Positions 4,553-40,629 of a stretch of DNA of 64,000 nt are shown piece after piece (the stretch's first letter is position 1; each line of letters begins with the position of its first letter). This DNA comes from Pectobacterium sp. A5351. GTDB lineage: Bacteria; Pseudomonadota; Gammaproteobacteria; Enterobacterales; Enterobacteriaceae. The notes below the pieces were generated by a model. The model saw nothing but the letters and a program-made list of their open reading frames with translations, had not been told where the DNA came from and searched no databases. The stretch is from the NCBI RefSeq assembly GCF_028335745.1, contig NZ_CP116477.1, positions 2,356,001-2,420,000 on the forward strand, read 5' to 3'. The position numbers were made by a program, and so were the translations under genes.

Positions 4553-4647
4553 GTATTGATAACCTCAGTTTTGATAACCGAAGTAATGCGCCGAGCCAAT
4601 CGGGTAAACCCGAAAATGGGTTTACCCTCATAGCTATGTTTTATCCC

Positions 4648-6699
4648 TTATCCGCGATCGCCCTCAGGCATCTCAAGCACCATCAGCAGAAAAGCATATT
4701 CCAACGCAATATCATCATAGCGTTTGAAACGACCAGATTTTCCGCCGTGTCCGGCGTCCATGTCGGTGTACAGCAGCACCAGACGATCGTCCGTTTTGAC
4801 TTCCCGCAATTTCGCCACCCACTTCGCAGGTTCCCAATACTGCACCTGAGAATCGTGCAGTCCAGTATTCACCAGCAAATGTGGGTAATGCTGTGCGATA
4901 ACACCGTCATAGGGGCTGTATTGTTTGATATAGTCATAGTAGATTTGCTCATTCGGATCGCCCCACTCGTCATACTCGCCGGTCGTCAATGGGATAGACT
5001 CATCCAGCATCGTCGTCAGCACATCAACGAATGGAACCTGAGCGACAACACCTTTAAACAGTTCAGGCGCCATATTCACCACCGCGCCCATCAATAATCC
5101 ACCGGCACTGCCTCCCATTGCGAACATGTTCTTCCTGTCGCCATAACCTTTTTCTATCAATGCCTGCGACACATCGATGAAATCCGTGAAGGAATGCATT
5201 TTATTGAGCAACCGACCATCGTCATACCACTGTTGCCCCAGTTCACCACCGCCACGAATGTGCGTTAAGGCGAAGACAAACCCCCTGTCCAGCAGGCTCA
5301 AGCGACTCACGCTGAAATCAGGATCCAGACTATGGCTATAAGCGCCGTAGCCGTAGACCAGTATCGGGTTCTTACCGGGGCTGAAATGATCGCGATGGTA
5401 AACAAGAGAAACGGGAACCTCGACGCCATCTCGAACCGTGATCCACACGCGTTCGCTCTGGTAATTGTCCGAAGAGAAGTCTTTCACTTCAGCTTGTTTA
5501 AGTAACCGTTGTTCGCCCGTATCCAGATTCAATTCATACTGCGTGCTTGGAGTGGTCATTGATGAATAGCCATACCGCATCAATGCCGTGTCTGGCGTAG
5601 GATTGTACGACAGCCATGTCACATAGCTTGCATCATTAAAGGCGATCGTTTTTTCTTCCTGCGTATGCCAGTGAATCTGGCGTAAGCTGGTCAAGCCGCG
5701 CTCTCTTTCTTCAACCACCAGCCAGTCTCGAAACAGCTCAAAACCTTCCAGCACGCGACTTTCGCTCGGTGCAATCAGTGTTTCCAGCGTTTGCTCATCG
5801 GGCTTATCAGCGCGGTAAAGGCCAAAGTTTTTTCCTTCTCGGTTGGAGCGCAGATAAAACTTGCCTTGATAGTGATCGATGCCATATTCATGATCTTTCC
5901 GGCGTGGGATGCAGACCTGCGGCACGGCATCCGGCCGCGTCGCATCGAGCAATAACACTTCCGTCGTCGTGGTGCTGCTGAGATAAATGGTGATGTAGTG
6001 CTCTGATGTCGTTTTACTCAGGCTGACATAATAGGTGTCGTCTTTCTCTTCATAGACCAGCTCATCCTGTGCCGGATCGCTCCCCAGACGATGACGATAG
6101 ACCTGATACGGCAATAGCGTTTGCTCATGCTTGCGCACGTAATACAGAACCGTCGAATCCGCTGCCCATTCCGCTCCCGCCGTGACATTTTCGATCACAT
6201 CCGGCAACCACTCACCACTGTTCAGATCGCGAAAACGAAGCGTGTACTGCCGACGGGATAAAAAATCCTCCGAGAGTGCCAATAGCCTATTGTCGGGACT
6301 AACTTCAAGCGCGCCCAGGCTATAAAATTCGTGCCCTTCCGCTCGTTGATTCCCGTCCATCAGCGTGTCCCACACGTCTGTTGCCTGCTCAGGCTGACGC
6401 AAATAGATGGCGTACTCTTTGCCAGGCTCATAGCGACTTTGATAGCGATAACCCTTTCTGACATACGGCACAGACATATCCGTCGACGGGATACGCTTAA
6501 CCATTTCGTCATACAATGACCGTTTGCGCGCCTCATGAGGTGCCATGACAGCGTCGCTATAGGCGTTTTCCTGTTCCAGATAGGCCAGCACCTGCGGATC
6601 GGCACGCTGGTCATCACGCAGCCAGTAATAATTGTCGATACGCGTATCGCCATGCATGCTCATCACATGAGGGCGTTTTTCAGCTTGCGGTGTTTTCAT
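4648..6699 (-). CDS. ptrB: Oligopeptidase B
   Basis: A 683-residue S9A prolyl-oligopeptidase family serine peptidase that cuts short peptides after Lys or Arg in the cytoplasm. A beta-propeller occupies about residues 70-400 and the alpha/beta-hydrolase domain the C-terminal third. Catalytic residues are Ser531 ([10 protein letters not shown]), Asp616 ([12 protein letters not shown]) and His651 ([12 protein letters not shown]). The start at 6699 ([20 protein letters not shown]) matches the E. coli N-terminus; the open frame extends 25 codons further but without homology. It is transcribed convergently with the small ORF at 4442 and divergently from purT. The protein is complete and full length. 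Confidence 0.96.
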
Positions 6700-6840
6700 C
6701 GCGTCGGATCTCGTTGTCTTACCATAAAATTTTAACTCTACAAGAAGAGTGGCACGATTGATCGGCAATGCCAAGACACGCCCTTATCACTTGGTGCGCT
6801 TTTGCGCACCGCATTCCAATGCATGCCCTCTTTAATGCGC

Positions 6841-6856
6841 ACGCAAACGTTTTCGT
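6841..6856 (+). promoter_or_regulatory. PurR operator upstream of purT
   Basis: ACGCAAACGTTTTCGT differs from the PurR consensus ACGCAAACGTTTGCGT at one position. It lies 44 bases before the purT start codon, where PurR with hypoxanthine or guanine would block transcription. This is the regulation known for purT in E. coli. Confidence 0.9.
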
Positions 6857-6899
6857 TTATACTGCGGCCATTTTTCACAACCCGATCAGGTATAAGGTT

Positions 6900-8078
6900 A
6901 TGTTAACGATTGGAACCGCCCTGCGAGCGGATGCCACACGAGTGATGTTGCTTGGCTCCGGTGAATTAGGCAAAGAAGTGGCGATTGAATGTCAGCGTCT
7001 GGGTATCGAAGTGATTGCGGTCGATCGCTATGCCGATGCCCCGGCCATGCAGGTTGCGCATCGCAGCCACGTCATCAATATGTTGGATGGCGATGCATTA
7101 AAAGCGTTGGTTGAAGCCGAGCGTCCTGATTACATCGTGCCGGAAATTGAAGCCATCGCCACCGACATGCTGGTAACACTGGAAAAGCAGGGTCACCATG
7201 TTGTTCCTTGTGCTGAAGCCACGCGCCTGACAATGAATCGTGAAGGTATCCGTCGTCTGGCGGCTGAAACACTCGGCGTGCCCACTTCCACCTACCGTTT
7301 TGCCGACAACGAAGAGAACTTTCGTCAGGCGGTAGATGCGATTGGCTATCCCTGTATTGTTAAGCCGGTCATGAGTTCATCTGGCAAAGGGCAAAGCCTG
7401 ATTCGCTCCGCGGAGCAGTTAGATCAGGCGTGGAGCTACGCCCAACAGGGGGGACGAGCAGGCGGCGGGCGCGTCATCGTGGAAGGACTGGTTAATTTTG
7501 ATTTTGAGATCACTTTGCTAACCATCCATGCGGTTGACGGTATTCATTTCTGTGCGCCTATCGGGCATCGTCAGGAAGATGGCGACTATCGTGAGTCCTG
7601 GCAGCCGCAGCAGATGAGTGCGCTGGCGCAAGAGCGCGCGCAAAAGATGGCCAGCGATGTCGTGAAAGCGCTCGGTGGCTACGGCCTATTCGGCGTTGAA
7701 CTGTTCGTTTGCGGCGATGAAGTCATCTTCAGCGAAGTCTCCCCTCGCCCGCACGATACCGGCATGGTGACGATGATTTCTCAGGACTTGTCCGAGTTTG
7801 CCCTGCACGTCCGCGCTTTTCTGTGTTTGCCAATTGGCGCGGTTCGCCAATACGGCGCATCGGCTTCCGCTGTGATTTTACCAGAACTGGAAAGCAACAA
7901 CGTGCGCTATCAGGGGCTGGAAAGCGCGCTACTCCCTCACACGCAAATTCGCCTGTTTGGTAAGCCGGATATCAGCGGTAAACGTCGCATGGGCGTAGCA
8001 TTAGCCAGCGCAGAAACCACGGACGATGCGGTGGCAATCGCCAAACGTGTCGCTGCGACTGTAAAAGTCAGCGGCTGA
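6900..8078 (+). CDS. purT: Formate-dependent phosphoribosylglycinamide formyltransferase 2
   Basis: A 392-residue ATP-grasp enzyme, the same length as E. coli PurT. It makes formyl-GAR from GAR, formate and ATP, the folate-independent alternative to PurN in purine synthesis. Visible are the N-terminal Rossmann-like segment ([20 protein letters not shown]), the ATP-grasp lid ([10 protein letters not shown]) and the metal-binding end ([13 protein letters not shown]). The start at 6900 ([14 protein letters not shown]) is used because the upstream part of the frame contains the PurR operator and lacks homology. A bidirectional hairpin terminator follows. Confidence 0.97.
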
Positions 8079-8120
8079 TAGGCTACTGCCAATAGGGTGA
8101 CGGACAAGGATGTCCGTCAT

Positions 8121-8150
8121 AAAAAAGGCCACTCGTAGTGAGTGGCCTTC
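8121..8150. terminator. bidirectional terminator between purT and eda
   Basis: AAAAAAGGCCACTC, then GTA, then GTGAGTGGCCTT forms a stem with A-run on one side and T-rich sequence on the other. It can end the convergent purT and eda transcripts. Confidence 0.8.
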
Positions 8151-8171
8151 GTCATTCAGTCACGAGCATAC

Positions 8172-8813
8172 TTAGGCTTTTGCACCTGCAACGGCTTCAC
8201 GCGCCAGTTCGGTAATACGCGCGTAATCACCGCTTTCCAGCGCATCGTTCGGCACCAGCCATGAACCCCCTACGCACAGCACGCTTTTCAGCGCCAGATA
8301 GTCGCGGTAGTTATTTGGCGTAATGCCACCGGTCGGGCAGAAACGGATCTGAGCAAACGGACCCGCGATCGCCTGGAGCGCTTTCACACCGCCGTTAGCT
8401 TCCGCAGGGAAGAATTTGAACTCACTCAGACCGTAATCCATACCCAGCATCAGTTCAGACACGGTGCTGATACCTGGAATCAACGGGATGTTGCCTGCGG
8501 TCGCCGCTTTCAGCAACGGTTCAGTCAAACCAGGGCTGATGGCGAACTGGGCACCGGCTTCCACTACGGCCGCCAGTTGCTCAGGGTTTGTTACCGTACC
8601 CGCACCCACAATGGCTTCCGGCACTTCTTTCGCAATCGCGCGGATCGCGTCGATGGCGCAGTCGGTACGCAATGTCAGTTCCAGAACGCGAACGCCGCCC
8701 GCGACTAACGCTTTTGCCATCGGCACCGCGTGTTCCAGTTTGTTGACGACAATAACAGGAACAACGGGACCCGTTGTCAAAATCTGTTCCGCGCTCGTTT
8801 TCCAGTTTTTCAT
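8172..8813 (-). CDS. eda: KHG/KDPG aldolase
   Basis: A 213-residue class I aldolase that splits 2-keto-3-deoxy-6-phosphogluconate into pyruvate and glyceraldehyde-3-phosphate. The Schiff-base lysine lies in [12 protein letters not shown] (about Lys133) and the catalytic Glu in VLELTLRT (about Glu45). The ATG at 8813 is the start; an in-frame TTG one codon earlier is not needed. The gene follows zwf on the same strand after a 168-bp gap with a hairpin, with no edd between them, so here the enzyme probably serves mainly the pectin/hexuronate route (KDG kinase product) rather than a complete Entner-Doudoroff pathway. No convincing KdgR box was seen in the gap. Confidence 0.96.
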
Positions 8814-8931
8814 CAAAAGTTATCTCCAGTCATGCCCGAAGGCATCATTAATTATATAGCGCGCCCCTGCCACAGGGATCTGCGTCGCCACAGATGTCCG
8901 ACCGCACCGTTAGCCATACATTAAAAACTGC

Positions 8932-8957
8932 GGGATGCCGAGCAATCTCGGTATCCC
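8932..8957 (-). terminator. hairpin after zwf
   Basis: GGGATGCCGAG, then CAAT, then CTCGGTATCCC forms an 11-bp stem with one G-T type mismatch. On the minus strand it is followed by GCAGTTTTT. It could attenuate or end the zwf transcript before eda. Confidence 0.55.
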
Positions 8958-8981
8958 CATTACTGACGTATTATCAAAAAA

Positions 8982-10457
8982 TTATTCAAACTCATTCCAT
9001 GAACGGCCATCGCGGGTAATCATCGCCACGGATGCCACTGGCCCCCAACTTCCCGCCTGATACGGTTTCGGCGCATCATTGTCCATCGCCCATGCATCCA
9101 TGATGGAATCCACCCATTTCCAGGCTTCTTCCACCTCATCACGACGGACGAACAATGCCTGGATACCACGCATGGTTTCCAGCAGCAGGCGCTCATAGGC
9201 ATCGGCCAAATGCTGCTGATTAAAGGTTTCCGAGAAGCTCAGATCCAGCTTCACCGTTTGCAGGCGGTGCTTGTGCTCTAGCCCCGGGATTTTATTCAGA
9301 ATCTGGATTTCAACCCCTTCATCCGGCTGTAAGCGAATGATCAACTTGTTCTGCGGCAATTGCTGGTAAGAATCATGGAACAGGTTCAGCGCAGGGTTCT
9401 TAAAGTACACCACGACTTCCGAGCATTTCGTCGGCAGACGTTTACCGGTACGCAGATAGAACGGCACGCCAGACCAGCGCCAGTCATCAATATCGACACG
9501 AATCGCGACAAAGGTTTCTGTGCTGCTGCTTTTGTTCGCGCCTTCTTCTTCCAGATAGCCCGGCACTTTGTGTCCCTGAACAAAACCGGACGTATATTGG
9601 CCGCGTACCGTCGTTTCATGCACGTTGGAACGATCGATACGACGCAGTGAACGCAGCACTTTCACTTTTTCATCACGGATACGGTCGGTCGTCAGGTCAG
9701 ATGGCGGCGACATCGCAATCATCGTCAGAATCTGTAACAGATGGTTCTGGATCATGTCGCGCATCTGGCCAGCTTTATCAAAATAGCCCCAGCGCCCTTC
9801 AATCCCGACTTCTTCAGCTACCGTAATCTGCACATGGTCGATCGTCCGGTTATCCCAGTTTGAGGAGAACAGCGAATTGGCAAAACGCAGCGCCAGCAGA
9901 TTCAGTACGGTTTCTTTCCCCAGATAGTGGTCGATACGATAAACCTGGCACTCGTTGAAGTATTCCGCGACCTGATCGTTAATGACGCGAGAAGACGCCA
10001 GATCGGTACCCAGCGGCTTTTCCATCACCACGCGCGCCGGTTCTTTATTCAGCCCTGCGGTTCCCAGACCTTTGCAGATCGCGCCGAATGTGCTCGGCGG
10101 CATCGCAAAATAATTGATAGTGGTGCGGTTTTTCTGGTCAAGCATCTTGCCCAGCTTGTTGAACGCTTTCGTGTCTTCCACATCAAGATTGCAGAAATCC
10201 AGCCGACTGCTTAGCGTTTCCCACAACTTGTCGTCGATGGCTTCTTTCATAAAGGTGTCAAGCGCTTCGCGCACGACGCGGGTATACTCCGCTTTATCCC
10301 AATCGGCACGGCCCACCCCGATAATTTTGGTGTCCGCATGGATGTGGCCTGCTTTTTCCAACTGGTACAGGGAAGGCAGCAATTTACGGCGCGCCAGATC
10401 GCCCTTGGCACCGAAAATAACCAGATCGCACGCTTGGGCTGTTGAAGTTACCGCCAT
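8982..10457 (-). CDS. zwf: Glucose-6-phosphate 1-dehydrogenase
   Basis: A 491-residue enzyme, the length of E. coli Zwf, catalysing the NADP-dependent first step of the oxidative pentose phosphate pathway. The dinucleotide-binding loop FGAKGDLARRKLLP is at residues 16-29, the active-site signature RIDHYLGKE near residue 180, and the C-terminus WGPVASVAMITRDG is intact. The start at 10457 (MAVTSTAQ) is chosen over the ATG two codons upstream because GAGGAG is then 6 bases away and the N-terminus matches E. coli. A perfect HexR operator lies 25 bases before the start, and hexR is divergent. Confidence 0.97.
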   Translation of the reverse strand: MAVTSTAQACDLVIFGAKGDLARRKLLPSLYQLEKAGHIHADTKIIGVGRADWDKAEYTRVVREALDTFMKEAIDDKLWETLSSRLDFCNLDVEDTKAFNKLGKMLDQKNRTTINYFAMPPSTFGAICKGLGTAGLNKEPARVVMEKPLGTDLASSRVINDQVAEYFNECQVYRIDHYLGKETVLNLLALRFANSLFSSNWDNRTIDHVQITVAEEVGIEGRWGYFDKAGQMRDMIQNHLLQILTMIAMSPPSDLTTDRIRDEKVKVLRSLRRIDRSNVHETTVRGQYTSGFVQGHKVPGYLEEEGANKSSSTETFVAIRVDIDDWRWSGVPFYLRTGKRLPTKCSEVVVYFKNPALNLFHDSYQQLPQNKLIIRLQPDEGVEIQILNKIPGLEHKHRLQTVKLDLSFSETFNQQHLADAYERLLLETMRGIQALFVRRDEVEEAWKWVDSIMDAWAMDNDAPKPYQAGSWGPVASVAMITRDGRSWNEFE

Positions 10458-10481
10458 GTTCATCTCCTCGTTGCAGGATGC

Positions 10482-10496
10482 TGTAATTTTATTACA
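10482..10496. promoter_or_regulatory. HexR operator in the zwf promoter region
   Basis: TGTAATTTTATTACA is a perfect palindrome (TGTAAT-TTT-ATTACA) that fits the gamma-proteobacterial HexR motif TGTAATTAAATTACA. HexR releases such sites when it binds KDPG. It sits in the 384-bp zwf-hexR gap, close to zwf. No other gene-like feature was seen in that gap. Confidence 0.85.
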
Positions 10497-10841
10497 GCGA
10501 TAATGTACTCTTTTTGACTACAGCCAGTAAACCCATCATAAAAATGCCAAATAATGGTCGCTATTGGCTGAAAACCACACATAAGTCGGTCTGTGCAGCG
10601 GCTGAAATCACTTAGTCATTCGCCCTAAAGCGAAATTTTTCGTCGTTTCTGACAGTCGATTACTTTTCTGAAAGTTAGACACATGTCATGTTCTGGCAAA
10701 AAAAGGACTCAACTTAGTGTATTGCCCTCTGCCAACCACTACAGGGTCGTAGTATATTTTCACGACTTGCATTTTTTCACGTAATGCATGCCAGTTGTAC
10801 CTTTAGTTGAAATTGGAAAAAACTTACATGGCCCTTGTCGT

Positions 10842-11711
10842 ATGAATATGCTGGAAAAAATCCAGAGTCACCTAGAACTCTTGAGCAAATCGGAAAGAAA
10901 AGTTGCTGAAGTGATCCTGAGCACTCCGCAAACAGCCATTCACTCCAGCATCGCGACCTTAGCCAAAATGGCCGATGTTAGCGAGCCGACGGTCAATCGT
11001 TTCTGTCGCCGCCTTGAAACGAAAGGTTTTCCCGATTTTAAACTACATCTGGCACAAAGTCTGGCAAACGGTACACCCTATGTGAACCGTAACGTTGAAG
11101 AAGATGACAGCGTTGACGCCTACACCAGTAAAATCTTTGAATCCACAATGGCTGGCCTAGAAAAGGTGAAATCCAGTCTGGATGTCACCGCCGTCAACCG
11201 CGCCGTGGATTTACTGACGCAGGCGAAAAAAATCTCTTTCTTCGGCCTGGGCGCTTCCGCCGCAGTCGCACACGATGCGATGAACAAATTTTTCCGCTTC
11301 AACATCCCCGTCGTTTATTTTGATGACATCGTTATGCAGCGCATGAGCTGTATGAACTCCAGCGACGGCGACGTCGTGGTATTGATTTCCCACACGGGCA
11401 GAACGAAAAGCTTGGTCGAAATGGCGCAGCTGGCACGCGAAAACGACGCGACAGTGATCGCGATTACCTCGGACGGCACGCCGCTGGCGCGTGAAGCCTC
11501 GTTGGCTCTGCGGCTTGATGTGCCTGAAGATACCGATGTCTATATGCCGATGGTGTCCCGCATCGCTCAGTTGACGCTAATCGACGTTCTGGCAACCGGG
11601 TTCACACTGCGCCGTGGGGAAAAATTTCGTGATAACCTGAAACGGGTCAAAGAGGCCTTGCGTGAATCGCGCTTTGATAAAGACGAGCGATTGATTAACC
11701 CCTTCAGGTGA
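10842..11711 (+). CDS. hexR: HexR, DNA-binding regulator of central carbon metabolism
   Basis: A 289-residue RpiR-family regulator. The N-terminal HTH (residues 1-77; VSEPTVNRFCRRLETKGFPD) is followed by a SIS domain (about 125-260; FFGLGASAAVAHDAMNKFFR, VVVLISHTGRTK) that in homologues binds KDPG. It regulates zwf, eda, pykA-type and other glycolytic genes. I use the ATG at 10842 (MNMLEKIQSH), matching E. coli; the longer open frame starting at 10788 has no homology. It is divergent from zwf and shares with it a gap containing a HexR box. It is followed by an ERIC element and pykA. Confidence 0.95.
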   Translation: MNMLEKIQSHLELLSKSERKVAEVILSTPQTAIHSSIATLAKMADVSEPTVNRFCRRLETKGFPDFKLHLAQSLANGTPYVNRNVEEDDSVDAYTSKIFESTMAGLEKVKSSLDVTAVNRAVDLLTQAKKISFFGLGASAAVAHDAMNKFFRFNIPVVYFDDIVMQRMSCMNSSDGDVVVLISHTGRTKSLVEMAQLARENDATVIAITSDGTPLAREASLALRLDVPEDTDVYMPMVSRIAQLTLIDVLATGFTLRRGEKFRDNLKRVKEALRESRFDKDERLINPFR

Positions 11712-24910: not shown

Positions 24911-26128
24911 ATGTATTCATTTGTTGCACGTCAACCTATTTTAAATCAATACCTCCAAACTGTTGCCTACGAACTCCTTTTTCGCATGGACGTCACCAAT
25001 AAATTTCCTAATGTCAGTCCTGAATTTGCTACCGCACAGCTTATTTCCGATCAGTTCTTAACCAATCCACTGACAAAATCCGTGGTTGAACAACCTTACT
25101 ATATTAATTTTCCCCACCAGATGCTGATCAATGGTCAGGCAGAAGTCCTGCCACAGGAAAAAGTCGTTATCGAGATTCTTGAGAATTCTCCCCCCGACAA
25201 CGATCTCTTTGTCGCCGTAAAAAAGCTAAAAAGAAAAGGCTTCAGAATTGCGCTGGATGATTTTTCGATGGATTCAGAGTGGGATCGGTTTTTACCTTAC
25301 ATTGACATCATCAAATTCGATCTCACTCTATCGACGTTTGATAATATTGAAAATTTCATCAACAGAACCTCGCCGCGCAAATTAACCTATCTGGCCGAAA
25401 AAGTAGAAACGCATGAGCAATACCTGCAAAGCAAAAAGCTGGGGATCTCACTTTTTCAGGGATATTTTTTCAGCCGTCCTGAAATGATTAAGTCGAAAAA
25501 ATTAGTCAGTAACTCCAGCAATACCATCAGGCTACTGAGAGAGGTTAATAAGCCTGAAATCAACTATGCCACGATCGAGGAATTGGTTTGTGCCGATCTG
25601 TCGCTGTATTATAAATTGATGCGCCATATCACCAATATCAAATACAACACCCGCTTTGGTATCACCGCGACCTCGATGTCTTTCCGTTCCATGGCAATGC
25701 TGCTTGGACAACGGGAACTCAAACGTTTTGTCTCGTTAATCAGCATTACCAACAGTAATGAAAATAAACCCAGCGAGCTTTATCGCACCAGTTTAATTCG
25801 CGCCAGATTCTTCGAATTATTGCACGCGTCTTTTAATCTGAAGAACGATACCACCGAGGCGTTTCTCTGTGGATTATTATCGCTGCTCGATGCCGTATTA
25901 GATTCGCCGATGCCGCTGCTGCTCTCGCAAATCGCTCTGTCGGAAAAAATTAACCAGAGTTTATTGGATCATACCGGCGAGCTCGCGCTTTATCTGACAT
26001 TAATCTCTAAATATGAACAGCAAGAGTGGGAAGAACTTGAACAGCTTTTAACGCAACTGGGTCTTGATGAAGAAAACGTCCTTACCATGATCATGGAGGC
26101 AACGCACTGGGCAGATGAGATTTTATAA
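24911..26128 (+). CDS. EAL-HDOD two-domain signalling protein
   Basis: A 405-residue protein with an N-terminal EAL domain (about 1-205) and a C-terminal HDOD domain (about 206-390), the architecture of the YuxH/CdgJ family. EAL signature positions are partly kept: YELLFR for the EAL motif, VIEILEN for the catalytic Glu region, ALDDFS for the DDFG motif, IIKFD for the K-D pair and FQGYFFSRP for the QG end. It may therefore bind or hydrolyse cyclic di-GMP, though the motifs are off-consensus. The HDOD part (ADLSLYYKLMRHI) mediates protein contacts in signalling. Homologues affect motility. It is a single gene with its own promoter region. Confidence 0.85.
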   Translation: MYSFVARQPILNQYLQTVAYELLFRMDVTNKFPNVSPEFATAQLISDQFLTNPLTKSVVEQPYYINFPHQMLINGQAEVLPQEKVVIEILENSPPDNDLFVAVKKLKRKGFRIALDDFSMDSEWDRFLPYIDIIKFDLTLSTFDNIENFINRTSPRKLTYLAEKVETHEQYLQSKKLGISLFQGYFFSRPEMIKSKKLVSNSSNTIRLLREVNKPEINYATIEELVCADLSLYYKLMRHITNIKYNTRFGITATSMSFRSMAMLLGQRELKRFVSLISITNSNENKPSELYRTSLIRARFFELLHASFNLKNDTTEAFLCGLLSLLDAVLDSPMPLLLSQIALSEKINQSLLDHTGELALYLTLISKYEQQEWEELEQLLTQLGLDEENVLTMIMEATHWADEIL

Positions 26129-33751: not shown

Positions 33752-33807
33752 TTTACCACTGGCTGTGACCGGCCTGCTTGCCATACCGCTCTCAATGCCT
33801 CTCCAGG

Positions 33808-33846
33808 CTGTCTCTTAGTCATATACTGCTGCGTACTAAGAGACAG
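33808..33846. repeat. 12-bp inverted repeat resembling IS50/Tn5 outer ends
   Basis: CTGTCTCTTAGT (33808-33819) and ACTAAGAGACAG (33835-33846) are perfect inverted copies 15 bp apart. Their outer ten bases are the same as the first ten of the Tn5 mosaic end (CTGTCTCTTA). They may be a transposon footprint at the island edge or simply a weak hairpin after argS; no transposase is present. Confidence 0.5.
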
Positions 33847-33892
33847 TTTCGGAAATAACGATAGTCATTCCTCTGATTTTAAAATCATCCTC

Positions 33893-35062
33893 TCAAGTAC
33901 GTGATTGTCGGTAGGTTAAATAGATTAAAAATGTCATCATGATGCCGACAGAACACAAATTTATGATGATCCAGCCATTTTTCATATTCATAAAAAAACC
34001 GACGGATAATGATGATAAAAAATTAACAACATATATTGACAAGGAATTCACACCCTGAGCCTTATATTTCATTTTTGTATCTACAATCTGGTTAACCAAA
34101 AATGTTCCACCGGCAAACATAACTCCCCAGCCAGCGCCAACGATACTGAGAGAGATAATATAGCCTAAATGATCGTTAACAAAGAGAGGGAAAGCGGAGC
34201 CAATAATGAATAAAAGAGATCCTATTTGTATAATAGATGCCGTTTTAATTTTATGGATTAAAAAGGGTAGCAAAAAAGCCGGTGCGTACATCCAGAAGAA
34301 ATGCCATTGTAGTACATTTGCACTCTGCTCTATATTGAACTGCTCATGATGCATCGCCAAAGGTGTCGCATTCATCACTAATGTCATCACAGAGAACGCC
34401 AAAGCACAGCTCATAGTACCTATTAAAAAACCAGGGCATTGGATAACATCCATAACCTTAACATTTTGAGTATCATTATCTTTTTTACTCCCTAGCGGAA
34501 TAAAAATAAACATCTGAGAAATAAAAGATAGCGCAAACACAAGAGAAGACAGTATAAACGTCCCCAGAAATACATGCTCAGAGATCAGTAGCTCGCCTTT
34601 TGTCGCGATAATCGGCCCCGCCACGCCACCAATAACCCCACCACCAATTATAATTGATGTACATATTTTCTTTTTTACATCTTCATTAAATATCTCAGCA
34701 GCAGCAAATCTGTAATATTGATTAAATACGGTAGCGCCTCCAAGTATAAGAGTAGATAAGATGAACAATGAAAAAATCTCATAATACATCGACACAGCAG
34801 CCAACACGCTGCCAAATAATCCGATGATGCTCCCAATCGCAAAAGCGGTGCGTCTCCCATACGACGACATCAGATATGACGCATAGTAAACCATAATTGC
34901 CCCTCCCAGAACGGTAGAGGTAACAGGTACTGTACTGAGAAATGGATATGGCGCAAGTTTATTGCCCGCCAGCGTAGAGGTAAGCGTCAACATAGAAATC
35001 ACTGACCCCGTTAATCCCTGACCTATAAACAACGAAAATAATGTAATTCTATTTTTCATCAT
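33893..35062 (-). CDS. MFS transporter, last gene of the accessory operon
   Basis: A 389-residue major facilitator superfamily protein with about 11-12 membrane segments. The MFS loop 2-3 motif is recognisable as YLMSSYGRRTAFAIGSIIG, and segment 5 has the glycine-rich GGGVIGGVAGPIIA. The closest general type is a drug/small-molecule efflux or uptake MFS protein; the substrate is unknown. It starts 13 bp after the upstream gene, with GGGGG before two possible ATGs (35062, 35059). It is AT-rich like its two partners and unlike the neighbouring core genes. I infer export of the product made by the two upstream enzymes. Confidence 0.8.
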   Translation of the reverse strand: MMKNRITLFSLFIGQGLTGSVISMLTLTSTLAGNKLAPYPFLSTVPVTSTVLGGAIMVYYASYLMSSYGRRTAFAIGSIIGLFGSVLAAVSMYYEIFSLFILSTLILGGATVFNQYYRFAAAEIFNEDVKKKICTSIIIGGGVIGGVAGPIIATKGELLISEHVFLGTFILSSLVFALSFISQMFIFIPLGSKKDNDTQNVKVMDVIQCPGFLIGTMSCALAFSVMTLVMNATPLAMHHEQFNIEQSANVLQWHFFWMYAPAFLLPFLIHKIKTASIIQIGSLLFIIGSAFPLFVNDHLGYIISLSIVGAGWGVMFAGGTFLVNQIVDTKMKYKAQGVNSLSIYVVNFLSSLSVGFFMNMKNGWIIINLCSVGIMMTFLIYLTYRQSRT

Positions 35063-35075
35063 ATCCCCCGACTAT

Positions 35076-36458
35076 TTATTCTTCAATATACCTAATGCCT
35101 TTAATCACAGAAATATATTCTTCTTTAGACAGATCGGTATAAAACAAAGGCTGATCATTTTCAGTTAACCATGAAAACAAACCATTTGTCACTGGTTGGA
35201 TTCTCTTAACTTTACCTTTTTCTCCTTTGCTATATATTTCAAGCAAAGTATCGAATGAAATCCCACTTTTAGTTATAAAACCGCATACATGCTGAGAAAG
35301 TTTGTTACCACTATTTTTACCTAACGTATAGAGCGCGGGGATATCTCTGCGATCTTTTTTCTCATGAACGGTCAAACGAATTGCGTTTGAATGCAACTTA
35401 CTTTGTGATGTATTGTTAATATCACCATCCATCAAATGCAACGCTATATACTTCCTTGCGGAGACAAGTGAAACCTGATAAAAAAAGTCAATTACATCAT
35501 CGAATAACTCAACGTTGTTTAACTTATCTATCCAGAATGGATGCGTCGTCCTATTGAGGATGGAAACAATCGCGATCATAATTAACTGGTCTATATCATT
35601 TTTATCTTTAATATATCTTGAAATACTTTCAGGAAGATGAATGCCATGAGGATTTAATACGTCCCCAGTTAATATTGCTTGCCAATCAACATTTATAAGT
35701 ATTGTTTTAAAGATCTTTTCAATATCTCTCTGTTCTGTCATGCTACAAAACAAATTCAATTTATCATAATCCTCTATATGATTATTATGATATGAGTCGA
35801 AAATAATATTTACACCTTCTATTTTTAGTGCATTTACTAACAACTGTCTTTGTTGATCATACTTAATAATTGCATCACGATCTGTAAATAATGCAGGATA
35901 GAATCTTGTTCCACCGGTTAATACCGTCAACTTAACATTATAACCACAAATCAAATGGACACTAAGAAGGACAATTTGTAGATTCATTATTGCGTACAGT
36001 TCAGACAGATCCGCACTAAACCCCTCCGTTTTCAACCCTCCGCAATAGCGTTTTGCCTGCCCCCAGCCAATAAGAAATTCCACATTATTTTTTTGCAATG
36101 CAGAATACAATTTTTCCTGTAATTTTCTGGTATCAAGGCTGCCAGCATTTTTTGAAATAGAGTGATCTCTGAAAACTTCAACGATAAGTGCTGCACGATA
36201 CCAGTCCTTATCGTCTAAATTTGAATACATTATGTCTTCACCAATACCTTCAATTCTCCCTTTTACGGTTTTGACAACTTTTCTGGCCTCTCTAATTATA
36301 TTTTCAATGAAAAGTTCAATTAGTAATTCACAATCGGAATGAGTTAACTGCTCAGTTTGCAAATCACGAATACTAAAATCATAATCCCACTTATCATTAA
36401 TAATGACAGGCAAATTTGACTCACTAACAAAAATTCTATTTTCCATTAAAAAATTCAT
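35076..36458 (-). CDS. Dit1/PvcA-like protein B (possible isocyanide synthase paralogue)
   Basis: A protein of about 460 residues, cytoplasmic by composition. It appears paralogous to the gene immediately upstream. Both have a helical N-terminus, a middle motif (here GWGQAKRYCGGLKTEG then FSADLSELYAI) followed by a Rossmann-like stretch (VKLTVLTGGTRFYPALF), and a C-terminal ARKYIALHL then IRLTVHEKK and LSQHVCGFI. In the Dit1/PvcA family (amino-acid isocyanide synthases using ribulose-5-phosphate) the same order holds. The ATG at 36458 is preferred over 36467 because AAGGA then has 8-base spacing. Family assignment is by eye, and catalytic competence is unknown; it could be a non-catalytic partner. 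Confidence 0.55.
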   Translation of the reverse strand: MNFLMENRIFVSESNLPVIINDKWDYDFSIRDLQTEQLTHSDCELLIELFIENIIREARKVVKTVKGRIEGIGEDIMYSNLDDKDWYRAALIVEVFRDHSISKNAGSLDTRKLQEKLYSALQKNNVEFLIGWGQAKRYCGGLKTEGFSADLSELYAIMNLQIVLLSVHLICGYNVKLTVLTGGTRFYPALFTDRDAIIKYDQQRQLLVNALKIEGVNIIFDSYHNNHIEDYDKLNLFCSMTEQRDIEKIFKTILINVDWQAILTGDVLNPHGIHLPESISRYIKDKNDIDQLIMIAIVSILNRTTHPFWIDKLNNVELFDDVIDFFYQVSLVSARKYIALHLMDGDINNTSQSKLHSNAIRLTVHEKKDRRDIPALYTLGKNSGNKLSQHVCGFITKSGISFDTLLEIYSKGEKGKVKRIQPVTNGLFSWLTENDQPLFYTDLSKEEYISVIKGIRYIEE

Positions 36459-36469
36459 TATAGACATCC

Positions 36470-37888
36470 TTAATCTTTAATGTAGTACATCGGCTGATTA
36501 ATTTTATTCATCTCATATAATGGATCAAATTCTTTACCTTTTTTATCTCCTGATGAAATATAAATTTTTGTATGATCTTCAGATTCACGGAAAAGTCTGT
36601 ATTTATAATCCACCGAAATACTTTCGCTTTCATTCTTTATACCCGCAACAGTATGCTGAGCTGTCATTGCGTAATCTTTAGCATTCGTCGATATAAAATT
36701 ATATTCCCCTTTTTTGGCATGAATGGTCAACTTCAAAACCGATGGTAATTTATTATAAATAGTATTCAATTTTCGATCTGTTAAAGAAATAGAAACGTAC
36801 TGCTTTGCGGCTTCCCACGCCTCTTTCCTCATATTAAAAATGGTATCTATTGCATCATAAGCAAGAGCACCAACGATATCGGAAGAAAAAAGGTGTGACT
36901 TTTTTAGTCTATCAATTTGAAAATTTAAAGATGCAATGAATGACACATAAAAATTTTGATTTTCTCTGGTAAAAATCTGTTTCTCTTTATGCCAGTCAGG
37001 AAATAATGAATGATAATTCACAGATGTTATTATTGACCAGTATGTATGCGATAACTGTTTTCCAATATCATCATTCTGTATGTATTGAAATGTTTTTTGA
37101 GGATTATTGGCATCAAAAAAACGATCATATTTAGACGATAACTCATGATAAAGACGCTTATTTAAAACGTGCCTTTTAAAATCCCAATCATCAACCGAAT
37201 CATCACTTATCCATTTTTCGTAATCAACAACTTCGACAAAATCATCAATATGAAGATACTTCACCCAATAGTTAAGCGACTGCTGATATAAATCCACTAC
37301 TTCATAGGGTGTTTTACATGCTCTGTTATATTTATTCCCATCCGCCAGGATGATAAACTTGCACGGATAATTAGAAATATTTGATATTAATTTAGCCAGT
37401 TTTGCACATCTTAGTAATGTATTAATTTCACCTATATCAGGAAAATATCCTTTATTTTTTATTGGTGAAAATGGCTTTCTTGATAAGACAGGCATCGCCA
37501 AAATAATTTCTTTATGTTTATTGATATTTTCACTTATTATTGAGACAGTTTCACTTCTATTAATATATTGTTCATTGTTTTTAAAAAAATATCCATCAAA
37601 CAAGGCTTCTGCTGCATATTCAACTGCGGTTAATTTATTACTGTTATGATTGCCAAACTTTCCTTTAATTCGCTTAAGTAATGCTGACTGCCTTTTTGAT
37701 ATAGTTGTATTTAATTTATTTTCCAGCTTACCAAGTATTTCATTAACAAAATAGTCTTCATGCACAATAGTATAATTACTTCCACGCCCATCCATCGTAT
37801 CAAGCTGATGCCTCAGCCGTTCAACCAAACTAATCAAACGATGTGAACTGGATATTTGTGTTTTTTTTTGCTCTTCATTCAGATTCAT
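36470..37888 (-). CDS. Dit1/PvcA-like protein A (possible isocyanide synthase)
   Basis: A 472-residue protein, first gene of the accessory operon. Around residues 137-190 it has ILAMPVLSRKPFSPIKNKG, then FPDIGEINTLLRCAKLAKLI and FIILADGNKYN, which follow the Dit1/PvcA signature (P-x-x-S/K-x-P...K..G..PD..E...L..L, then a DG motif after a beta strand). The C-terminus has LKLTIHAKKGEY and AQHTVAGI, the places of the family's IRLSIH segment. PvcA-type enzymes make isonitriles from Tyr or Trp; Dit1 makes the dityrosine precursor. The best support is order of motifs, not high identity. It is strongly AT-rich, suggesting transfer, and is followed by its paralogue. Confidence 0.6.
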   Translation of the reverse strand: MNLNEEQKKTQISSSHRLISLVERLRHQLDTMDGRGSNYTIVHEDYFVNEILGKLENKLNTTISKRQSALLKRIKGKFGNHNSNKLTAVEYAAEALFDGYFFKNNEQYINRSETVSIISENINKHKEIILAMPVLSRKPFSPIKNKGYFPDIGEINTLLRCAKLAKLISNISNYPCKFIILADGNKYNRACKTPYEVVDLYQQSLNYWVKYLHIDDFVEVVDYEKWISDDSVDDWDFKRHVLNKRLYHELSSKYDRFFDANNPQKTFQYIQNDDIGKQLSHTYWSIITSVNYHSLFPDWHKEKQIFTRENQNFYVSFIASLNFQIDRLKKSHLFSSDIVGALAYDAIDTIFNMRKEAWEAAKQYVSISLTDRKLNTIYNKLPSVLKLTIHAKKGEYNFISTNAKDYAMTAQHTVAGIKNESESISVDYKYRLFRESEDHTKIYISSGDKKGKEFDPLYEMNKINQPMYYIKD

Positions 37889-38453
37889 AGTTCCCTCTAA
37901 TGATCACAATAACTTTCCATGTACGTAATATCATTTAACAGATCCCAAACAAGTATAAAATATAAAAGTGCGAAAACATCCAACAAATAACAATAAGTAA
38001 TAAAAAATATCTTTAATATAAAGAAAACAAATAACAGCCATTTAATAGTGATTTATATCAATAAATAGCAAAAAAAAGAATAAAAAATTGTAAAAAACAT
38101 TCTTTTAGATTCTTCAACCAAATCAGCCAGTTCAAAAACTGATGTTATTTCACCATCCTATTGGATAATTTTAAAGTTTACAGCGCCCACTATTAAATAG
38201 TGGGCGAATTATTAATTCTTGAATTAATAGCAAAAAACTATAATCATATATCAGACTGATGACAAACCTATTTGCCGAACAAAAACGAGGGTAACGGAAT
38301 AGAATAGTAAAGCGTTTGCGCCAGGGACAAAAGCCTCAGGAACGCTTTTGAACGTCGCTTGCGACAGACCTGAAAGGCTGACTATGTCCCCCTCCGCAGG
38401 GGGGAAACATCTTGAACCCTGCCTGACAATAGTCAGGGTAAAGGAGGGAGTAT
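37889..38453. other. AT-rich upstream region of the accessory operon and island edge
   Basis: The first 300 bp are very A/T-rich with long A-tracts and must hold the operon promoter, a likely H-NS target; no single promoter can be picked with confidence. A perfect 11-bp inverted repeat lies at 38184-38206 (CGCCCACTATT, A, AATAGTGGGCG). From about 38290 the base composition returns to that of the core genome. Short hairpins at 38387-38405 and 38422-38437 follow murJ. Confidence 0.6.
38387..38437 (-). terminator. two short hairpins after murJ
   Basis: TCCCCCTCCGCAGGGGGGA and CCTGACAATAGTCAGG are small perfect stems just past the murJ stop codon on its strand. Neither has a T-run on the minus strand, so they are possible processing or termination signals only. 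Confidence 0.4.
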
Positions 38454-39989
38454 CTACACACTACGGCGGGCAAAATCTCGTGGCCGGAACCCCAGCAGGG
38501 CCAGCGTGGCAAAATAGGACCCTGCTCCCGCGACCACCACCAGCAGCAAACGCAGGATTCGCATCGTCATGTTGCCGTCATCCCACGCGGGCATCCACCA
38601 CAGCATCCCCAGTAAAACCAGCGACATCACGATAACCGCGACCAGCAGACGCACCAGAAAACGCCGCCAACCCGGCTGTGGCTGGAAAATATCCTGCTTA
38701 CGCAGTTGCCAGTACAGCAACCCTGCATTCAGGCACGATGCAAGACCGATGGACAAGGCCAGACCAGCATGTTGCAGCGGGCCGATAAAGATCAGGTTCA
38801 TCACCTGCGTCAGAATCAGCGTGACTATCGCGATTTTAACCGGCGTCTTGATATCCTGTCGGGAATAAAATCCGGGTACGAGCACCTTGACAACAATCAA
38901 TCCCATCAGCCCAACCGAGTAGGCAATCAGTGCCCGCTGGGTCATCAGCGCATCAAAGGCGCTAAATTTACCGTACTGGAACAGCGACACCGTCAACGGT
39001 TTAGCCAAAATACCTAGTGCGACCGCACTCGGCAGCGCCAGCAGGAAACACAGGCGGAGTCCCCAATCCATCAGACGGGAGTATTCGTCATGGTTGCCAC
39101 TGGCAAAACTCTTCGCCAGCGACGGGAGTAAGATCGTTCCCAGCGCCACGCCCAGAACGCCGGAAGGGAACTCCATCAGGCGATCGGCGTAATACATCCA
39201 TGACACCGCACCTTCACTGAGGAAGGACGCGAAAATGGTGTTGATGATGAGTGAAATCTGGCTTACCGAGACGCCCAGAACCGCAGGCCCCATCAGCTTC
39301 ATGACTCGCCAAACGCTCGGTTCCCGCCATTTCAGGCGTGGCAAGACCAGCATGCCAATCTTTTTCAGATGCGGTAGCTGGTAGCCGAGTTGCAGTAAAC
39401 CGCCAACCAACACCGCCCAGGCCAGCGCCATCACCGGTGGGTTAAAATATGGCGCAGCAAACAGCGAGAAACCAATCATGCTGACGTTAAGTAATGTCGG
39501 GGCAAACGCCGGCACCGAGAAACGGTTCCAGGTGTTCAGCACCGAACCGACCATAGAGGTCAGTGAAATCAGCAGAATGTAGGGAAACGTGACTCTTAAC
39601 AGATCCGAGGTCAGCTCAAAGCGCTCTGGCGTCACGGCAAAACCAGGAGCGGTCACCATAATAACCCAAGGGGCGGCAACCATTCCGGCTACGGTGACCA
39701 ACGCCAGAATCAGCGTCAGCATACCGGAAACATAAGCGAGGAAGGTTCGCGTGGCCTCGTCACCCTGCTGACTTTTATATTCGGCAAGAATAGGCACAAA
39801 AGCCTGTGAGAATGCGCCCTCCGCGAAAATCCGCCGGAGCAGGTTGGGCAGTTTAAACGCCACAAAGAAGGCATCCGTCGCCATACCTGCACCAAAAATA
39901 CGCGCGACGATCGCATCGCGCACAAACCCTAAAATGCGCGATAGCATGGTCATGGAACTGACGGCAGCCAGTGATTTAAGTAAATTCAT
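38454..39989 (-). CDS. murJ: Lipid II flippase MurJ
   Basis: A 511-residue MOP-superfamily flippase (MviN) with 14 membrane segments that moves lipid II across the inner membrane for wall synthesis. The N-terminus [20 protein letters not shown] and the conserved [20 protein letters not shown], plus [20 protein letters not shown], are diagnostic. Essential in relatives. The length is the same as E. coli MurJ. Its usual neighbour yceM, upstream on the same strand, is broken. Confidence 0.96.
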
Positions 39990-40165: not shown

Positions 40166-40629
40166 TGGTTACCTGATGCACGGTGCGAAACGACGATTAA
40201 AGCCGACCATCAGAATTTTTTGTCGTTGTTCTGCCAATTCAACCAGCGCTTCCGCCTGTGTAAGCCGCTCTGCCAGCGGTTTATCCACATAAACATCGAC
40301 GCCAGCTTTCAGCAGTTGGCTCACAACAGAAAAATGGCTGGCGGTGCTGCTGTACACGAAAACGGCATCACGAAAACGGCATCACATTGTGCAGCCAGTT
40401 CGTCCAGCGCGGAGAAACTCGTCATTCGATAGTGCTGACAAATCCGCTGCGTCTTTTGCTGGTCGGGAGAAAATGCGCCAACCAATTCCCAGCGTTCGGC
40501 CTGGCTAAGAATCGGCAAGTACGCTTTCTGCGCGATAGATCCCAGCCCGACAACGCCGATACGGGGACATTGGCTAACACCACCGCTATTCTCCGAAACA
40601 CTTTGCGCAGACGTAAGCTGAGGCTTCAT
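40166..40629 (-). pseudogene. yceM: yceM (mviM), frameshifted and truncated oxidoreductase
   Basis: The N-terminal half of a Gfo/Idh/MocA-type NAD(P)-dependent oxidoreductase: the Rossmann motif GVVGLGSIAQKAYLPIL, then in another frame HFSVVSQLLKAGVDVYVDKP and MVGFNRRFAP. The frame breaks at a 14-bp tandem duplication of ACGAAAACGGCATC (40356-40369 and 40370-40383). About 170 C-terminal residues of the normal 307 are also missing after a stop at 40169. The gene is non-functional. It sits between murJ and yceH as in other enterics. Confidence 0.85.

Follow-up and report, generated by a model that had tools for sequence, protein, structure and literature searches.

We analysed a window of 64,000 nucleotides from Pectobacterium sp. 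A5351 (contig NZ_CP116477.1, positions 2,356,001 to 2,420,000; source genome of 4.41 Mb), which holds a compact operon of three genes on the minus strand. The first gene, P1 (36470–37888), encodes a PvcA/IsnA-fold protein of 472 amino acids, and the second, P2 (35076–36467), encodes another PvcA/IsnA-fold protein of 463 amino acids. The third (33893–35062) encodes a transporter of the major facilitator superfamily (MFS), probably an exporter, that is 389 amino acids long and matches PF07690 (3.8e-13; 49.5 bits, above the cut-off of 33.4). Gaps of 2 bp (P1–P2) and 13 bp (P2–MFS) separate the genes; these coordinates and gaps agree with an initial annotation made from the sequence alone, and the motifs quoted there were present in the translations of both proteins. 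Its description of the operon as far more AT-rich than its neighbours was also borne out: G+C content was 0.341 across 33893–37888 and 0.506 in the rest of the window, with the interval from the argS end to the murJ start excluded (34.1% vs 50.6%), and 0 of 521 non-overlapping 3996-bp windows were as G+C-poor. Judged from its sequence, the operon probably makes and exports an isonitrile-type small molecule.

Fold and relationship of P1 and P2

For both proteins, the best structural matches were PvcA and PIsnA (PDB 3e59; PIsnA 9dh4 and 9dhm), far above other folds. We concluded that P1 and P2 both have a predicted PvcA fold, with ~80 extra N-terminal residues lying outside the PvcA alignment. 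A canonical PvcA/IsnA profile matched P1 at 2.3e-15 and P2 at 3.6e-5. Results differed for the family model PF05141 (DIT1_PvcA): P1 scored 36.2 bits and passed the cut-off of 26.4, whereas the window's P2 gave no match, and six P2 homologues scanned against the same model reached at most 21.0 bits, one of them without any match. The NCBIfam model for tyrosine isonitrile synthase (NF045653) gave 18.5 bits for P1 against a cut-off of 600, and no match for P2. P1 is a PF05141 member; P2 shares the fold only and is not a member of the family. The earlier claim that both proteins are Dit1/PvcA-like stood for the fold of both, but at family level it stood for P1 and failed for P2.

The two proteins matched each other by profile at 9.8e-15 across 404 columns. 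Their identity was 20% across 378 columns, within a range of 15–20% for P1–P2 comparisons. In a tree, P1, P2 and canonical rows formed three separate groups (support 80/93, 100/100 and 100/99), with long branches that leave the root and deep order unsure. These results showed that P1 and P2 are paralogues, as the initial annotation had proposed from their common layout. That they are unrelated was ruled out by the common structure matches and the mutual profile match, and a recent tandem duplication was ruled out by the 20% identity and the separate tree groups.

Insertion site and distribution

The operon lies in an inserted segment (33759–38283) between argS, which matches E. coli argS, and a gene that we take from its sequence to be murJ. 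The segment is absent from 24 of 24 genus relatives; argS and murJ adjoin in all of them at a spacing of 81–296 bp, measured by match ends, compared with 4.5–4.7 kb in the window. The right edge at 38283 rests on one relative (L043), and homology to the others restarts at 38455/38456. P2 relatives were present in 2 of 25 genus genomes, namely the window's own and G005. In the latter, the trio recurs with unchanged gene order at a different chromosomal site, ~340 kb from its own murJ, with protein identities to the window of 62% (P1), 53% (P2) and 58% (MFS). Its operon is also AT-rich (34.1% G+C vs 51.5% in the flanks). Horizontal gain of the operon is the simplest reading.

We scanned the GTDB species collection with a P1 alignment (A1) and found nine loci; the scan was pattern-based, so this number is a lower bound. 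With P1 alone as query, the scan yielded no locus. The hosts were Volucribacter, a Helicobacter metagenome-assembled genome, two Chromobacterium, Acinetobacter rudis, two Ensifer, Streptomyces roseolilacinus and Mesorhizobium, which, together with the enterobacteria, span what we take to be three phyla. P2 lay directly 3' of P1 in 9/9 of these loci, with gaps of −4 to 10 bp. The pair also adjoins in the window, in G005 and in all seven Klebsiella plasmid records, three of which were read in detail (L004, L005 and L006). A related MFS gene followed P1–P2 in nine of 11 readable loci, with Klebsiella counted once: the window, G005, Klebsiella, Volucribacter, Helicobacter, both Chromobacterium and both Ensifer. 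With this recurrence in a genus mate and in unrelated bacteria, chance does not account for the three-gene arrangement. No MFS gene was found at the Mesorhizobium locus, and the Acinetobacter contig ends inside P2. Co-occurrence of the pair and the exporter in other genomes, which the initial annotation proposed to check, was confirmed for P1 and P2 at every locus found and for the exporter at most of them. Individual copies varied in integrity. P1 was split over two frames in Volucribacter (L033 9995–11398), and P2 was truncated in Mesorhizobium (L041 1497–2357), where its C-terminal end by eye resembles a site-specific recombinase.

Profile searches with P2 found the window's own genome alone among 394 genomes of the order and 398 of the phylum; among 392 genomes of the family they found the same genome and one weak match, a canonical IsnA–IsnB-type fusion (L007). 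Carrier G005 was not part of these samples. The fusion (1303–3066 of L007) is a protein of 587 amino acids whose N-terminal part is PvcA-type and whose C-terminal part is IsnB-like. P1-profile matches occurred in 44 of 246 Streptomyces genomes; one was of the P1 type (707 bits), and the other 43 scored at most 42 bits, over the PF05141-like part only. Against the E. coli collection, megablast gave no match for the Klebsiella P1–P2 DNA. All three Klebsiella plasmids read in detail are predicted to be conjugative, and one is pNDM-IMP-2. L004 and L005 carry transposase genes close to the operon, and IS903B interrupts P2 in L005.

Divergence of the two proteins ran in parallel. Across 10 loci, the P1 and P2 identity matrices correlated at 0.982, and 0 of 2000 permutations were as high; two near-identical locus pairs inflate this and the other matrix correlations. 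The corresponding values for MFS were 0.875 with P1 (9 loci) and 0.907 with P2 (10 loci; 0/2000 each), further inflated by an unrelated Streptomyces MFS row. Pairing at every locus and parallel divergence favour a heteromer or a tightly coupled pair.

Several other explanations of the locus were rejected. An intact mobile element at the argS–murJ site was discounted on two grounds: no integrase open reading frame was seen by eye in the window, and the edges of the inserted segment had no flanking repeats. A phage-borne unit was set aside after a pattern scan of viral contigs in which no P2 relative was found, and a known defence system after PADLOC gave no match at E 0.01. The AT-rich stretch 5' of P1 (37889–38283, no strand assigned) is a presumed promoter region, but promoter-like matches there (24) were not above shuffles (mean 21.8), and the promoter claim was dropped. 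Elsewhere in the window, a yceM/mviM-like oxidoreductase gene is truncated (40321–40629; PF01408, N-terminal part only, 102 amino acids), with ~463 bp extra in relatives L042, L043 and L045 at 40173/40178, and an EAL-HDOD protein is encoded in a locally AT-rich stretch (24911–26128).

Neighbouring genes and known systems

Using the IsnB-like C-terminal part of L007 as query, we found no IsnB/PvcB-type oxygenase at any of 13 P1/P2 loci, in flanks that extended to at most 10 kb (less for L006, L033, L037, L039 and L041). The same query found TauD/IsnB-type oxygenases in three of three canonical loci (L054, L055 and L056), and the claim that the operon lacks an oxygenase held within these flanks. 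No P450 was found at the 13 loci with one P450 query, which matched itself alone. Canonical locus L054 has two PF05141 genes together with a TauD–P450 fusion: its cluster (4583–11306) comprises an 862-amino-acid fusion of cyclic-nucleotide-binding, PvcA and DUF924 parts, an O-methyltransferase, a second PvcA-type gene and the TauD–P450 fusion, and it adjoins two-component regulator genes.

The Klebsiella operon has the order P1, P2, methyltransferase, InhA homologue and MFS (gaps of −8, 16, 17 and −4 bp), and a divergent GlxA/AraC-type regulator adjoins it. The best solved relatives of its DJ-1/PfpI protein are isonitrile hydratases (InhA 6ni5, 2.6e-65). The catalytic residues of isonitrile hydratase are Cys101 and Asp17 (PMC10971408). 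Both appear to align with identical residues of the Klebsiella protein once an offset of 3 in the chain numbering is assumed, and both stretches were present in all three Klebsiella copies fetched. A methyltransferase of the Klebsiella type was not found at the window or at 10 other non-Klebsiella loci. At both Chromobacterium loci, P2 and MFS are separated by a HAD gene resembling phosphoglycolate phosphatase (163 bits, below the model cut-off of 180). In Streptomyces roseolilacinus (L040 12935–17235), an aspartate aminotransferase gene begins 4 bp after P2, followed by an O-succinylhomoserine sulfhydrylase gene and a MetA-like gene. The idea that this aminotransferase is a resistance duplicate found no support, as the genome has no second copy close to it in sequence.

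In the reaction of isonitrile synthases, a carbon of ribulose 5-phosphate becomes linked to the amino nitrogen of Tyr or Trp (PMC7949033). P1 and P2 share the fold of PvcA/IsnA, and the FPxK/PD/DG/RLSIH/H blocks are largely present in P1 and partly in P2. PvcA/IsnA, however, is one protein of ~320 amino acids, whereas here there are two divergent paralogues of ~470 amino acids, with the N-terminal extensions and no PvcB/IsnB-type oxygenase found beside them. Like our operon, the hapalindole-type clusters have two IsnA-type genes (AmbI1/AmbI2, WelI1/WelI2), but there the two copies share at least 78% identity, functional redundancy is reported for AmbI2, and an IsnB-type gene (I3) is present (PMC4236562). 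Fungal isocyanide clusters contain MFS genes (~60%), isocyanide hydratases (21.1%) and P450s (34.6%), and in gene cluster family (GCF) 1 there are two synthases, ascribed to ancestral duplication (PMC10153163); the xan cluster has hydratase XanA and methyltransferase XanE (PMC5974471). This company of MFS, hydratase and methyltransferase is also that of the Klebsiella version. Some fungal synthases are fusions with a dioxygenase or nonribosomal peptide synthetase part, whereas neither such a partner nor a P450 was found here. The yeast Dit1–Dit2 system likewise combines a PvcA-like protein with a transporter, and differs in having no second PvcA-like protein and in its P450, a partner not found at the 13 loci with the one P450 query. 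Its exporter is Dtr1. We found no literature on the P1–P2 pair within open-licence PubMed Central.

Interpretation and alternatives

Taken as a whole, the best explanation (probability roughly 0.55) is that the operon is a mobile synthesis-and-export unit in which the paralogues P1 and P2 act together, most likely as one heteromeric enzyme, and the MFS protein exports the product. The unit would move horizontally between hosts. P1 and P2 would be old paralogues built on the PvcA/IsnA scaffold, with P1, the more PvcA-like, as the probable catalytic subunit. Acting on an amine (an amino acid) and a sugar phosphate, for instance ribulose 5-phosphate, P1 may form an isonitrile by condensation. P2 would be a diverged partner with conserved polar residues of its own, serving in substrate binding or in a second catalytic step. 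We infer the isonitrile chemistry, the substrates, the heteromer and the direction of transport. Isonitrile-type chemistry is favoured by the common fold and the motifs of P1, by the hydratase found in one lineage and by the parallel with fungal clusters. A fuller version, which we hold only tentatively, is that of a heteromeric synthase whose co-evolving PvcA-fold subunits form a divided or composite active site and make a new isonitrile or formamide that is exported, with no dedicated oxygenase, and that has spread horizontally across phyla, including on conjugative Klebsiella plasmids. We know of no example of a heteromeric isonitrile synthase. The initial annotation had offered a two-component isonitrile or aryl-formamide pathway as a possible new arrangement; its interpretation is supported and was largely right.

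The motif comparison used six canonical rows, the P1 rows and the P2 rows, with some cells read from alignments. Canonical rows had FPxK.P[NS]...PD, [SA]DG..[FW].D[LI], RLS[IV]H and P[WY]H. At these positions P1 retains K138, K144, D151, D183, H390 and H412, the last matched by eye to the histidine of P[WY]H, and the P1 rows retain the lysine, PD, DG, the KLT[IV]H histidine and the AQH histidine. P2 has R140 at the position of the FPxK lysine (WGQ.KR in its rows; WGH in one truncated row) and retains K146, D153, H368 and H393. Its rows have G where the canonical DG turn has D; the AD..E block persists in them, as does the QH histidine wherever that part is present.

A number of observations weigh against the preferred explanation. 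In P1, KYxRACxTP replaces the canonical [FW]xD[LI] after DG, with RAC in place of the second aspartate, and RKPxxP replaces KSP[NS]; because of these replacements, P1 chemistry may differ from the canonical one. P2, which fails the PF05141 model, has G185 in place of the aspartate of the DG turn, and the Klebsiella P2 has Arg at K146 and Ile for H368, the RLTVH histidine. P2 is less conserved, with 51 invariant columns against 74 in P1 (9-row alignments), and its pairwise identity was lower than or equal to that of P1 in most pairs. The Streptomyces locus is without the related MFS gene and has an unrelated one further on. Isonitrile hydratase was not found at the window or at 10 other non-Klebsiella loci, and the window's genome has only weak DJ-1-type matches (31–32% over half the protein). 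To our knowledge, no activity is known for any P1 or P2.

The losses in P2 suit an account in which P1 is the only synthase and P2 is no longer catalytic, serving as a scaffold or regulatory subunit: neither the DG aspartate nor the FPxK lysine is left, scores fall below the PF05141 cut-off and invariant columns are fewer. We consider this somewhat unlikely, in that P2 still has numerous charged and polar residues that do not vary, and a mean column identity (53%) near that of P1 (54%) in the 9-row alignments. P2 seems to be somewhat less constrained than P1, without the look of a decayed copy. Those same residues in or near the motifs (W135, Q137, K139, R140, K146, D153, E156, R188, R207, R364 and H393), invariant in nine rows without Klebsiella, which differs at K146 and R364, would also fit a sequential pathway, as would the single coherent tree group formed by P2. 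P1 would then make the isonitrile; P2, an enzyme in its own right on the same scaffold, would follow with a different reaction, perhaps another condensation that uses a further amine, and export would come last. This is rather improbable to us; P1 and P2 were never found apart and diverged in parallel, which a complex explains equally well or better.

Other alternatives concern the product. In a Dit1-like route, the released product would be an N-formyl compound and not a free isonitrile. In yeast, N-formyl tyrosine is the most likely product of Dit1, for which PvcA is no substitute (PMC7345447); the hydratase in the Klebsiella operon would yield a formamide. However, a fungal isonitrile of the Dit1 type was later reported to be a stable natural product (PMC13005658), and the hydratase, which was not found in other versions, may only protect the producer, so we judge this route unlikely. 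Equally unlikely in our view is a scaffold repurposed for chemistry without an isonitrile, such as a sugar-phosphate/amine adduct that is dephosphorylated and exported. The phosphatase-like gene at both Chromobacterium loci, the low score of P1 against the tyrosine isonitrile synthase model and the suggestion from yeast Dit1 that proteins of this fold may yield something other than an isonitrile speak for it; the isonitrile hydratase of the Klebsiella operon speaks against it, as do K138, D151, D183, H390 and H412, common to P1 and the canonical enzymes.

Isonitriles are reactive, metal-binding natural products for which few enzyme routes have been described. If the preferred explanation of a mobile synthesis-and-export unit is true, a three-gene unit of two synthase-like partners with their own exporter would be a new biosynthetic arrangement, one that a search for a synthase plus an oxygenase would miss. 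Because conjugative Klebsiella plasmids carry the operon along with an isonitrile hydratase, our data suggest a traded trait with built-in self-protection.

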